From assembly GCA_013314815.1 (NCBI GenBank), contig JABUEY010000003.1, positions 1 to 64,000 on the forward strand: a stretch of DNA of 64,000 nt, in the 5' to 3' direction. The stretch is from Syntrophobacteraceae bacterium. Its GTDB lineage: Bacteria > Desulfobacterota > Syntrophobacteria > Syntrophobacterales > Syntrophobacteraceae. How positions within the stretch are numbered: position 1 is the first letter of the stretch; each line of letters opens with the position of its first letter. The notes under the pieces were generated by a model. It saw only the letters and a program-made list of their open reading frames with translations, searched no databases and was not told the DNA's origin. The translations under genes and the position numbers were made by a program. This document shows, piece after piece, positions 2,101 through 6,571 of this stretch.

Positions 2101-3087
2101 TCAAATGTGAAGCTCCACAATATCTCCGTCCTGGAGCACGTAGTCCCGCTGAACCATCCGGCCGTCGAATACCGCCTTCCCCCAAACCTTTGCGTATTTC
2201 AATTTGTCCACAAAATCCTTGTGGATATTGGCAGCCAGATCCTCCAACGTGCTCTCGGCGGGGAGCACAAAAGGAGCCTTCATGTTCGGCTCCTTGCCCG
2301 GGGCCCTGGTATATACACGAATCAGGCCGGAAATACTATACAATACTTCCAAAAGCCGAGTCAAGTTCCGCCCCTTCAGCGTGGAAACCGCCATGCACGG
2401 AACCGAAACTCCCGCCAGTTCCAGAAAAGCATTGTAGTCTTCTTCATCTTTTTCACTATCGGTTTTATTCATTATTATAAGCATTTTTTTTATAAATGGA
2501 AGCTTTCTGATATCTTTTGGGATGAGGGCGCCTTCCGGGAAGATCCTCAGGCTCTCGAGGATGGCGAAGGTGTCTTCCATCTGCTGCAGAGGGTCCGCAT
2601 GAAGGTCGAGCATAATCAGCAGGATATCGGCCCGACGCATAAGATCGGCCATCCAGGGATCGAGGTAATCCTTTGTCACGGGCGGAGTATCCACCAGCTG
2701 AAACTGGATGTTCTCGAATGGGACCATGCCTGGAGTTGGTTTCCAGGTGGTATGGGGAAAATCGGCCACCTCGGGCCGGGCATTGGTCATGACTGCCACG
2801 AGGGAGGACTTGCCGGTGTTGGGGGCACCCACCAGTACAACCTGTGCAGCTCCTTCCTTTTCGATACTGAACGCCGTATCCCTCTTCGCCGTCCCCTTCT
2901 TCTGACGCGCCTCGGTCCTGAGCTTTGCAATTCGGCGCCTGAGGTCCGCCTTCAGCTTATCCGTGCCCTTGTGCTTGGGCATAATGGTAAGCATCTCTTC
3001 CAGGGCCTCGATCTTTTCTTCCGTCGTTTTCGCTTCCCTGAATCTCTTTTCCGCTTCAAAATAGGGAGGAGGCAAGTTGGCAGGCAT
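2101..3087 (-). CDS. DRG/Obg-related GTPase with C-terminal TGS domain
   Basis: A cytosolic P-loop GTPase of 328 residues. The N-terminal third is a charged helical region typical of DRG-type GTPases. The G domain follows with Walker A GAPNTGKSS, a switch II DTPP and the base-specificity motif NKTD. The last 75 residues are a TGS domain ending in YVLQDGDIVELHI, a fold seen in ThrRS, RelA/SpoT and DRG proteins and linked to ribosome or nucleotide sensing. The substrate is unknown. The gene lies upstream of the sigma factor and is separated from alaS by an opposite-strand gene. A purine-rich GGGGGA ribosome site precedes the ATG. Confidence 0.88.
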   Translation of the reverse strand: MPANLPPPYFEAEKRFREAKTTEEKIEALEEMLTIMPKHKGTDKLKADLRRRIAKLRTEARQKKGTAKRDTAFSIEKEGAAQVVLVGAPNTGKSSLVAVMTNARPEVADFPHTTWKPTPGMVPFENIQFQLVDTPPVTKDYLDPWMADLMRRADILLIMLDLHADPLQQMEDTFAILESLRIFPEGALIPKDIRKLPFIKKMLIIMNKTDSEKDEEDYNAFLELAGVSVPCMAVSTLKGRNLTRLLEVLYSISGLIRVYTRAPGKEPNMKAPFVLPAESTLEDLAANIHKDFVDKLKYAKVWGKAVFDGRMVQRDYVLQDGDIVELHI

Positions 3088-3162: not shown

Positions 3163-3191
3163 TTGCCAATCGGCCGGAAAGCTATTATAAG
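3163..3191 (+). promoter_or_regulatory. Predicted sigma-70 promoter for the small selenoprotein gene
   Basis: TTGCCA, a 17-nt spacer and TATAAG match the -35 and -10 consensus at five of six positions each. The predicted start point lies about 50 nt upstream of the TTG start codon of the small dual-CXXC gene. This supports a separately expressed gene in an otherwise minus-strand region. Confidence 0.65.
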
Positions 3192-3247
3192 TACACACTC
3201 TAAAAATCGACATAGAAAAAAGAATGCACTGATTTGAAGGAGAAATC

Positions 3248-3415
3248 TTGAACTGTCCCGCGTGCAAGAACAAACTGGTGATGGCCCGGACCTGACGGCA
3301 GATCATCTGGCGCTGCCGGGAATGCGGCGCATCTTATCGCCTGGCTGATTTGCATGAAGATCTCACCGAAGAAGCCGAAAGAGAACTCGCCTGCTGCAGA
3401 GTGGACCGCCTGTGA
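3248..3415 (+). CDS. Dual-CXXC-motif small selenoprotein, in-frame UGA as Sec (residue 16)
   Basis: A 55-residue reading frame interrupted only by TGA at codon 16. It starts at TTG, 5 nt after a good GAAGGAG ribosome site. It encodes MNCPACKNKLVMART, then UGA, then RQIIWRCRECGASYRLADL and a short acidic tail ending ACCRVDRL. The two CXXC motifs (residues 3-6 and 23-26) look like a zinc ribbon or a redox pair. This matches the small family annotated as dual CXXC motif small (seleno)protein in anaerobic Desulfobacterota, where Cys or Sec occupies the position between the motifs. A perfect 6-bp hairpin begins directly after the UGA. The function of the family is unknown, probably redox or metal handling. 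The alternative is a nonsense-mutated Cys homologue. Confidence 0.75.
3296..3318 (+). promoter_or_regulatory. Candidate bacterial SECIS hairpin
   Basis: Immediately after the in-frame TGA (3293-3295), CGGCAG pairs perfectly with CTGCCG across an 11-nt loop that contains guanines. Bacterial SECIS elements lie directly downstream of the Sec UGA inside the coding region and bind SelB through the apical loop. The place and size fit. The loop does not carry the exact E. coli GU arrangement. Confidence 0.6.
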
Positions 3416-3513
3416 ACCCGATTGCCGAAATCCGGCGTACCCCCGGGCTTCCAAGGGGAAGGAACGGCCGTTCAGTGCGCCGAACAAGTCAAACGTTTAT
3501 GGCTGAAACATTT

Positions 3514-3596: not shown

Positions 3597-6254
3597 TCAC
3601 AAGCTTTCCTCGATAAGTCTTCTCGCGAGAGCCAGAGCATTGGAGAGGTTTTCAGGCCTGTTGCCGCCTGCCTGCGCCATGTCCGGCCGGCCTCCTCCGC
3701 TGCCGCCCACCTCCTTTACAATCTGCTTGATCAGGTTCCCCGCGTGAACCCGTGAAGTCAGGTCAGGCGTGACCCCGACGAGCAGAAAAACCTTGTCTCC
3801 CCGCGTTCCTCCCAGAACGGCCACTCCGCTCTCCATCCGCTCCTTGAAACGATCGTTCATCTCCCGCAGTTCCTTGGGATTCTCGGCCTTCACGGCGGTG
3901 ACCAGCACCTTCACACCCTTGATGTTTTCGGCCTGTTCGAGAAGGTCCGCGGACTGCCTGCTCGAAAACGATGCCTTCAGGGCCTCGATTTCCTTTTCGA
4001 GCTGTCTTTGCTGCTGAAGCAGTTTTTCGACCCTGTCGGCCACCTCGAAGGGGCTGCTCTTGAGCAGTCCTGCAGCACGATAGAGGATCTCCTGCTGCCT
4101 GCCCAGGTGCTCCATGGCCCTCCGCCCCGCAAGCGCCTCGATCCGCCTCACACCAGCCGCAATACCGGACTCCTGAACAATGACAAACAGCCCTATATCC
4201 CCCGTGCGGTGCGTATGAGTACCACCGCACAGCTCCCTGCTGAACCCGGGAATCTCCACCATGCGCACCGTGTCTCCGTATTTCTCTTCGAACAGGGCCA
4301 TGGCTCCCGTTTTGAGCGCCTCATCGAGGTTCATCACGCGCACCTGGAGATCGTGATTTCGCAGGATCTCTTCGTTGACCAGCCTTTCGATCCGCATCAT
4401 TTCGTCAGGGGTCAATGCGGCAAAATGGGTGAAGTCGAAGCGCAACCGGTCGGGAGCAACCAATGAGCCCGCCTGCTTGACGTGATCCCCCAACACGGTG
4501 CGCAGAACGGCGTGAAGAATGTGCGTGGCGGTGTGGTGAAGAGCGGTGTCCTGCCGAAGCCTTTCATTCACGTTGAGTTCGACCTGGTCTCCCACCCGGA
4601 TCGTGCCTTCCTCCACCTTTGCCATGTGAACGATGATGTCGCCGGGCAGCTTAAGTGTGTCGATAACGGACAGCCTTCCAGCAGGTCCCGTGATGACTCC
4701 CTGATCTCCCACCTGCCCGCCGGAGGCTCCATAAAAGGGAGTTTCTTCTGTAACGACTTCGACTTCCATCCCCGAAGAGGCTTCGCCCGCGGCACTCCCG
4801 TGGACCACCAGCGCAAGCACAGTGGACCTGGCGCTGACGGCATCGTAGCCCACAAAGCGCGTAATGACTCCCTTCGAGGACAGCTGCCGGTAAGCCTCCA
4901 CGATCTCCCTGTCTCCGCTTCCTTTCCAGTGCATCCGGGATTGTTCCCTTTGCTTTTCCATGAGCTCCCCGAAGCCGGCTTCATCGACGGAGAAGTGGAG
5001 ATCATGAGCCATATCAGTAATGATATCAATGGGGAATCCGTAAGTGTCGTACAGTTTGAAGATCAGGGAACCGGGAATGATATCCACGCCTTCGTCCTGC
5101 AGTCGCCTGATTTCGTTCTGGAGCAGCCTCAAACCGTTGTCGAGGGTCTCGTTGAACCGCTCCTCCTCGTGCAGGATGACTTGAGTGATATAATTCCTGT
5201 TTTCCAGCAGTTCCGGATAGGCGTCCTGCATGGATTCCATGACCGAGACGGCGACTTCGCTGAGAAACGGGCGGTCGAGCCCGAGGAAGCGCCCGTGGCG
5301 AAGGGCGCGCCGAAGCACCCGCCGCAGGACATAGCCGCGGCCCTCGTTGCTGGGAAGTGCTCCGTCCCCGATCAGGAACGCCGCTGCCCGGCTATGATCG
5401 GCGATAACCTTTACAGATACGTCTTTTTCGGGTTCTTCGCCGTAGCGGTAGCCCGTAAGTTGAGCGATCTTCTCGCGCATGGGTGCAAACACGTCGGTGT
5501 CGTAATTGGACGGCACCTTCTGGATGACGGCGGCAATGCGTTCGAGGCCCATGCCCGTGTCGATGCTCGGTTTGGGAAGCGGTTCCATGGAACCGTCCGC
5601 CTTGCGGTTGAACTGCATGAAAACGAGGTTCCACAGTTCGAGATAGCGGTCGCAATCGCAACCGGGGCGGCAGTCGGGTCTACCGCAGCCGATTTCTTCC
5701 CCCTGGTCGATGAGGATTTCCGAACAGGGCCCGCAGGGCCCTGTGTCGCCCATGGACCAGAAGTTGTCCTTTGTGGGAAAGGTGAGGATGCGATCCTGCG
5801 GCAGGTAGCGAGCCCAGAAATGCCTGGCTTCCTCGTCGGGGCCGAGATGCATTTCGGAATCCCCTTCATGGATTGTGGCATAGAGCTTATCCCTGGGGAG
5901 TCCCATCGTCTCGGTGAGGAAGTCCCAGGCATATTCCACGGCTTCCTTCTTGAAATAGTCACCGAAGGAGAAGTTGCCGAGCATTTCGAAAAATGTGTGG
6001 TGCCTGGCCGTACGGCCCACATTTTCCAGGTCGTTGTGTTTACCGCCCGCTCTCATGCACTTCTGGCTGGTTGCGGCTCGCTTGTAGGGGCGTCGTTCCT
6101 CGCCCAGAAACGTGCGCTTGAATTGGACCATACCCGCGTTGGTAAACAGGAGGCTGGGATCATCGTGAGGGATAACGGAAGAGCTCTTTACAACGGAATG
6201 TCCCCTTTGCTGGAAAAAGTCCAAAAAGGCCTTGCGGATTTCGCTGGCTTTCAT
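3597..6254 (-). CDS. alaS: Alanine--tRNA ligase
   Basis: Charges tRNA-Ala with alanine in the cytosol. The 885-residue product has the usual family length. It begins MKASEIRKAFLDFFQQRGHS, and motif 1/2 sequences such as PSLLFTNAGMVQFKRTF and a GDTGPCGPCSEI segment follow. The editing domain carries the metal-binding HHTATHILH and CGGTHTHRTGDIG. A DHHA1-type C-terminal domain has the glycine-rich VGGSGGGRPDMAQAGG. The start was set at the ATG after GAGGAG, where homologues begin. The frame is open another 107 codons upstream to a GTG overlapping the recA stop, but that extension has no domain character. It lies downstream of recA in the same direction. Confidence 0.97.
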   Translation of the reverse strand: MKASEIRKAFLDFFQQRGHSVVKSSSVIPHDDPSLLFTNAGMVQFKRTFLGEERRPYKRAATSQKCMRAGGKHNDLENVGRTARHHTFFEMLGNFSFGDYFKKEAVEYAWDFLTETMGLPRDKLYATIHEGDSEMHLGPDEEARHFWARYLPQDRILTFPTKDNFWSMGDTGPCGPCSEILIDQGEEIGCGRPDCRPGCDCDRYLELWNLVFMQFNRKADGSMEPLPKPSIDTGMGLERIAAVIQKVPSNYDTDVFAPMREKIAQLTGYRYGEEPEKDVSVKVIADHSRAAAFLIGDGALPSNEGRGYVLRRVLRRALRHGRFLGLDRPFLSEVAVSVMESMQDAYPELLENRNYITQVILHEEERFNETLDNGLRLLQNEIRRLQDEGVDIIPGSLIFKLYDTYGFPIDIITDMAHDLHFSVDEAGFGELMEKQREQSRMHWKGSGDREIVEAYRQLSSKGVITRFVGYDAVSARSTVLALVVHGSAAGEASSGMEVEVVTEETPFYGASGGQVGDQGVITGPAGRLSVIDTLKLPGDIIVHMAKVEEGTIRVGDQVELNVNERLRQDTALHHTATHILHAVLRTVLGDHVKQAGSLVAPDRLRFDFTHFAALTPDEMMRIERLVNEEILRNHDLQVRVMNLDEALKTGAMALFEEKYGDTVRMVEIPGFSRELCGGTHTHRTGDIGLFVIVQESGIAAGVRRIEALAGRRAMEHLGRQQEILYRAAGLLKSSPFEVADRVEKLLQQQRQLEKEIEALKASFSSRQSADLLEQAENIKGVKVLVTAVKAENPKELREMNDRFKERMESGVAVLGGTRGDKVFLLVGVTPDLTSRVHAGNLIKQIVKEVGGSGGGRPDMAQAGGNRPENLSNALALARRLIEESL

Positions 6255-6571
6255 CAAAAAGATCTCCTCAGACTGGTTGCTTGATGTTTTCAGTTTGTCA
6301 AGGTCTGCGACGACACATGCCCGAGCCCTCACCTTCCGGGCAGACCGGCCGACGCCGGGGAGACGGAGCACGCGAACGGCCGATCGTGCAATTTCTTCCC
6401 AATGGAGATTCTTAACCTTTTTCCTTTGAGTTTTCCAGATCTTCCGACAGAATTGCCGTTGCTCGCCGCACGATCCCGCTGACGGGTGCCGCCGAGAGCG
6501 AACCCATCGACTTCGAACGGCCTTCCAATCCGCAGAGATCGCTTCCTCTTCTTCTTTTCCGTCCAGGGAAC
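6255..6571. other. 317-nt recA-alaS spacer, no recX found
   Basis: In many bacteria recX lies between recA and alaS. Here the spacer is too short for a full recX, and none of the three minus-strand frames gives a RecX-like sequence. The frame from the GTG overlapping the recA stop (GTGA) reads in phase into alaS, but it is arginine-rich and low in complexity. It probably holds the alaS leader or promoter. Confidence 0.5.

Follow-up and report, generated by a model that had tools for sequence, protein, structure and literature searches.

Positions 3248–3415 of the forward strand of a 64,000-nucleotide stretch of DNA (the window) from a Syntrophobacteraceae-type bacterium very probably form a functional gene for a selenoprotein of the NF041197 / OS_HP3 family, within which we infer that an internal UGA is read as selenocysteine (Sec). 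The gene, its family, the decoding machinery, the exchange of Sec with Cys and the selection on the frame are each demonstrated by comparison of sequences, and for the product we infer metal binding and redox chemistry. The features discussed below are as follows.

2101–3087, reverse strand: Obg-like GTPase-domain protein, divergent neighbour, below all family cut-offs
3163–3191, forward strand: promoter-like TTGCCA-17-TATAAG, 10/12 by eye, weak
3237–3242, forward strand: ribosome-binding site AAGGAG, read from the sequence, 5 nt ahead of the TTG
3248–3415, forward strand: putative selenoprotein gene, 55 residues, TTG start, UGA as Sec at codon 16, UGA stop
3254–3265, forward strand: first CXXC (C3, C6), predicted zinc knuckle, invariant in 48 homologues
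3293–3295, forward strand: UGA predicted to encode selenocysteine, residue 16; each homologue read has Sec or Cys here
3296–3318, forward strand: 6-bp hairpin of the preliminary description, in conflict with the likely SECIS and not conserved
3310–3330, forward strand: likely SECIS GCGCUGC-CGGGAAU-GCGGCGC, loop 21 nt after the UGA
3314–3325, forward strand: second CXXC (C23, C26), predicted zinc knuckle, invariant in 48 homologues
3597–6494, reverse strand: alaS, convergent neighbour, start codon uncertain

A selenoprotein gene of the NF041197 family

The frame comprises 55 sense or Sec codons, with one internal TGA (3293–3295) and a terminating TGA (3413–3415), and its translation with TGA as U is MNCPACKNKLVMARTURQIIWRCRECGASYRLADLHEDLTEEAERELACCRVDRL. 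An in-frame stop at 3230 lies upstream of the TTG at 3248, which leaves that TTG as the sole possible start. The preliminary description of this DNA had reported the TTG start with its ribosome site and a 55-codon frame with a single TGA between two CXXC motifs, and all of these are present in the sequence. It had also claimed that standard gene calling misses the gene; ORF calling with the standard code indeed returned no ORF of ≥50 aa in the frame of 3248–3415, so ordinary gene callers would pass over it, and a gene lost in this way is now confirmed. The good promoter that was described holds up only in part, because TTGCCA-17-TATAAG can be seen by eye but is absent from the list of a promoter scanner that requires T as the last base and that gave only a different weak site; the promoter at 3163–3191 is an unproven candidate.

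With the UGA read as Sec, the protein scores 49.9 bits against NF041197 ("dual CXXC motif small (seleno)protein"), above the curated cut-off of 40, in agreement with its earlier assignment to a dual-CXXC (seleno)protein family. The gene scored 40.8 in a six-frame search of its own genome, where it was the only NF041197 match, and the same family gave no match in a search of 14 control genomes; on the strength of this homology, chance is excluded as the origin of the frame. The protein shares with the family its length, both CXXC motifs (C3-C6 and C23-C26), the intervening Sec in the form RxU (R14-T15-U16) and the C-terminal DR-[LIVF], and it differs in nothing essential. A 2026 review enters the NF041197 family as OS_HP3 with the motif RxU (PMC13188914), and a 2022 review attributes OS_HP3 to the selenoproteome of the Olavius algarvensis symbiont (PMC9312934). 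The window gene is a further member of a catalogued selenoprotein family without an assigned function.

Named relatives come from Desulfoferrobacter suflitae DRH4, Desulforhabdus sp. TSK, and MAGs of Syntrophobacteraceae and other Desulfobacterota. Of 148 relatives, 66 carry the family, almost all with a single TGA; across the phylum it occurs in 112 of 395 genomes (28%), and there too a single UGA at a constant position is almost universal. The preliminary description had spoken of a small family in anaerobic Desulfobacterota; the family is known and common there, but it is not small, and this functionally blank family now extends to more than a quarter of the sampled phylum genomes. A related-locus search, for which a subset was used because the 48-sequence alignment was too diverse, gave 25 relatives, every one with its Sec where the window gene has it.

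Conservation and exchange of Sec with Cys

The residues C3, C6, C/U16, C23 and C26 are invariant in 48 main-clade sequences. Position 16, which the preliminary description had singled out for alignment, holds either Sec or Cys in each homologue that was read, and the TGA-free relatives read with residue 16 covered all have Cys (the partial match L154 leaves it uncovered). That Sec is exchanged with Cys only suggests a chemically reactive residue, and the natural Cys variants offer material for functional comparison. Many Cys-containing members (L055, L057, L142–L153) end in IIYD and not in DR-[LIVF], which suggests a separate Cys subclade.

Mean pN/pS values against 18 relatives were 0.37/0.80 before the UGA and 0.27/0.64 after it, and synonymous change exceeded non-synonymous change on each side of the UGA in 18/18 comparisons with the window gene. 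By this measure, purifying selection acts on the frame both upstream and downstream of the UGA.

Predicted fold and function

The AlphaFold2 model, of moderate confidence (pLDDT 79.6, pTM 0.54), contains a β-hairpin (strands 9–14 and 19–23) with Sec16 in the turn between the two strands, followed by a short strand and two helices. The best shapes found by Foldseek in the PDB were zinc ribbons at an E-value of 0.1, and no PDB match reached 0.001. The 55-residue product would fold as a zinc ribbon that holds one metal through the four cysteines of its CXXC motifs and displays Sec16 at the hairpin turn. Arg or Lys commonly stands at the second residue ahead of the Sec, and Arg immediately behind it; the two short helices would lead into a conserved C-R-x-D-R tail. 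To our knowledge, a zinc ribbon with Sec at its tip has no characterised precedent, and no relative, solved or annotated, has a known function.

We slightly favour a selenol-based redox role for this ribbon-borne Sec, which would act as the reactive residue either in a redox reaction or in a reversible selenenyl-sulfide switch, with a C-terminal Cys as a possible partner in most members. Such a Cys is present in 38 of 44 Sec members, and since the other 6 lack it, it is no obligatory resolving residue.

The protein could instead be mainly a structural or regulatory zinc ribbon in which Sec is an extra or alternative metal ligand and not a redox catalyst. The invariance of the five Cys/Sec positions is compatible with this role, as is a weak similarity to the double zinc ribbon of Escherichia coli YfgJ (PF07191; PDB 2jne, 2jrp), one of the nearest sequences, whose second ribbon aligns through CPxCxxxLxVLxAC and places a Cys at the Sec position. 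YfgJ, however, has a pair of ribbons and lacks both Sec and a second CXXC within the half that aligns, and the window protein, at 15.4 bits against a Pfam gathering score of 25, is not a member of PF07191. Given that the two CXXC motifs already supply four ligands and that the AlphaFold2 model places Sec16 in the turn, between the strands, we consider a role mainly as a structural or regulatory ribbon, with Sec as a ligand, rather unlikely.

Two further kinds of zinc ribbon bear comparison. The Lar restriction alleviation zinc finger (PF14354, TIGR03655) has a CxxCGG...CxxCG pattern that is resembled by a divergent clade of the present proteins (the GRU clade, below), but at E-values of about 1e-4 to 1e-5 at best; the window protein itself, at 13.1 bits against a Pfam gathering score of 28.6, is not a member of PF14354, and we know of no Sec in Lar. 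Over the β-hairpin ribbon, the best shape matches from Foldseek include ribbons of the RPB9 / C11 type, although with E ≥0.1 and no significant sequence relationship.

The probable SECIS element

The SECIS is probably the hairpin at 3310–3330 and not one lying directly after the UGA. It has 7 bp, a 7-nt loop (CGGGAAU) with G in second place and an energy of −10.9 kcal/mol, and it fits the published bacterial model, in which the loop lies 16–37 nt after the UGA and is 3–9 nt long (PMC13188914). It is common to the Sec relatives and was not seen in the Cys relatives. Across the alignment, 78% of cells pair at 3310–3330, with 16 double-changed cells and covariation greater than in all 500 shuffles, and synonymous recoding gave a mean z for the hairpin of −1.9 in 55 Sec members versus −0.2 in 5 Cys members, figures that are indicative and not exact, since the sequences are related to one another. 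The window's own hairpin has an energy that does not stand out from synonymously recoded versions (p 0.18), yet only 1.2% of random window positions match it. The CGGGAAU loop is the form found in the window's taxonomic family; other families, among other NF041197 members, carry CUGC-AAGGA or AGGUC-type loops at the SECIS position, and the hairpin is weak in some family members, e.g. L081, L084 and L085. An Rfam search of 3200–3500 gave no match.

The preliminary description had pointed to a perfect hairpin immediately after the TGA, and six perfect pairs do exist there (CGGCAG...CUGCCG, 3296–3301 with 3313–3318, starting at the base after the TGA; −8.0 kcal/mol). As the SECIS this structure is improbable: its loop starts 6 nt after the UGA and is 11 nt long, outside the published model on both counts, 56% of cells pair across 44 Sec relatives with covariation no better than in shuffles, and it overlaps in bases with the more stable and conserved hairpin at 3310–3330. 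The latter provides a testable candidate SECIS.

Selenocysteine machinery and decoding of the UGA

The genome encodes SelB (382 bits), a tRNA-Sec with the UCA anticodon (73.4 bits), selA, split across two contigs, and two selD genes (L020 and L019), one with a UGA in the motif SAGUAAK and the other without an internal stop. The search for selA, selB, selC and selD that the preliminary description had proposed thus finds the whole set, and with this machinery and a selD that itself contains UGA, decoding of UGA as Sec is expected elsewhere in the genome too. The preliminary description had named two findings that would refute it, a genome lacking this machinery and homologues without Cys or Sec at position 16, and the analysis came upon neither. 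The selA gene occurs in 110 of 112 family-positive genomes, the two exceptions being incomplete MAGs, versus 245 of 283 others; since selA is carried by 90% of the phylum sample, this co-occurrence conveys little information.

Translation would begin at TTG 3248; at UGA 3293–3295, SelB and Sec-tRNA-Sec (UCA) would insert selenocysteine, directed by the 3310–3330 hairpin, and UGA 3413–3415, which lies downstream of that hairpin, would terminate. Comparison across the family supports Sec insertion at this UGA well.

The same genome also carries a selC*-type tRNA-Cys, with a fold like that of tRNA-Sec and a GCA anticodon, upstream of its second SelB gene (G000:C208; L010:1020-1108; L002:1483-3450), an arrangement known in Syntrophobacterales, and a UCA version of selC* occurs in some Desulfobacterales (PMC7609411).

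The UGA could instead be decoded as Cys, by the selC*-type tRNA-Cys with its own SelB*, a reading to which both of these observations lend some weight. We regard this as very improbable, because the selC* anticodon here is GCA, which should read UGC/UGU; a canonical tRNA-Sec (UCA) is present, and most family-positive genomes have selA. That the UGA is a true stop, leaving a 15-codon 5′ peptide, an untranslated downstream part and the residual similarity of a decayed gene, can be set aside almost entirely, for although UGA serves as a stop elsewhere in the genome, including at the end of the window gene, the protein is conserved on both sides of a single UGA at one position in >100 genomes, pS clearly exceeds pN in both parts, and the remaining members have Cys in place of the UGA. 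Insertion of Sec is the reading we retain.

Gene neighbourhood and a divergent paralogous clade

Within the same order, the gene lies in a vertically conserved context of sigma factor, GTPase, selenoprotein gene, alaS and recA, flanked by the divergent Obg-like GTPase gene on one side and the convergent alaS on the other, and the synteny from the GTPase to recA helps to locate orthologues. Outside the order the neighbours vary (def/fmt, fabD, fabF, rlmH, pyrE and others, named by eye), a variation that leaves the gene without an assignable operon partner. The links to selD, to yedF and to selB each occur in no more than one or two lineages. In one such case (L168), a main-clade (RxU) gene is followed after 152 nt by a yedF-like gene made up of TusA-like and DsrE-like parts, with a GRU-clade gene ~4 kb further.

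The GRU clade (L099–L110, L159–L170), with the pattern CxxCGGxAxIxGRU..AxVxCxxCG, is divergent and paralogous to NF041197, nearly always has an in-frame TGA, and is found together with the main clade in several genomes. At an hhalign probability of 98, it is clearly homologous to the main clade. In two genomes (L166, L159) the gene directly upstream of selD is a GRU gene whose C-terminal part is extended (about 165 residues). We offer as a tentative proposal, doubtful at present, that the dual-CXXC selenoproteins form a superfamily of two or more paralogous clades, among them RxU and GRU, with a selenol exposed at the zinc-ribbon tip, and that some members may handle selenium, a role put forward because the GRU gene adjoins selD in two genomes and the RxU gene adjoins yedF in one. 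In the genome searches the GRU clade fell mostly under the NF041197 cut-off, although a scan of one member with its Sec read as Cys gave 41.3 bits; this paralogous clade, divergent and only partly captured by the present family model, is the most novel side result of this analysis.
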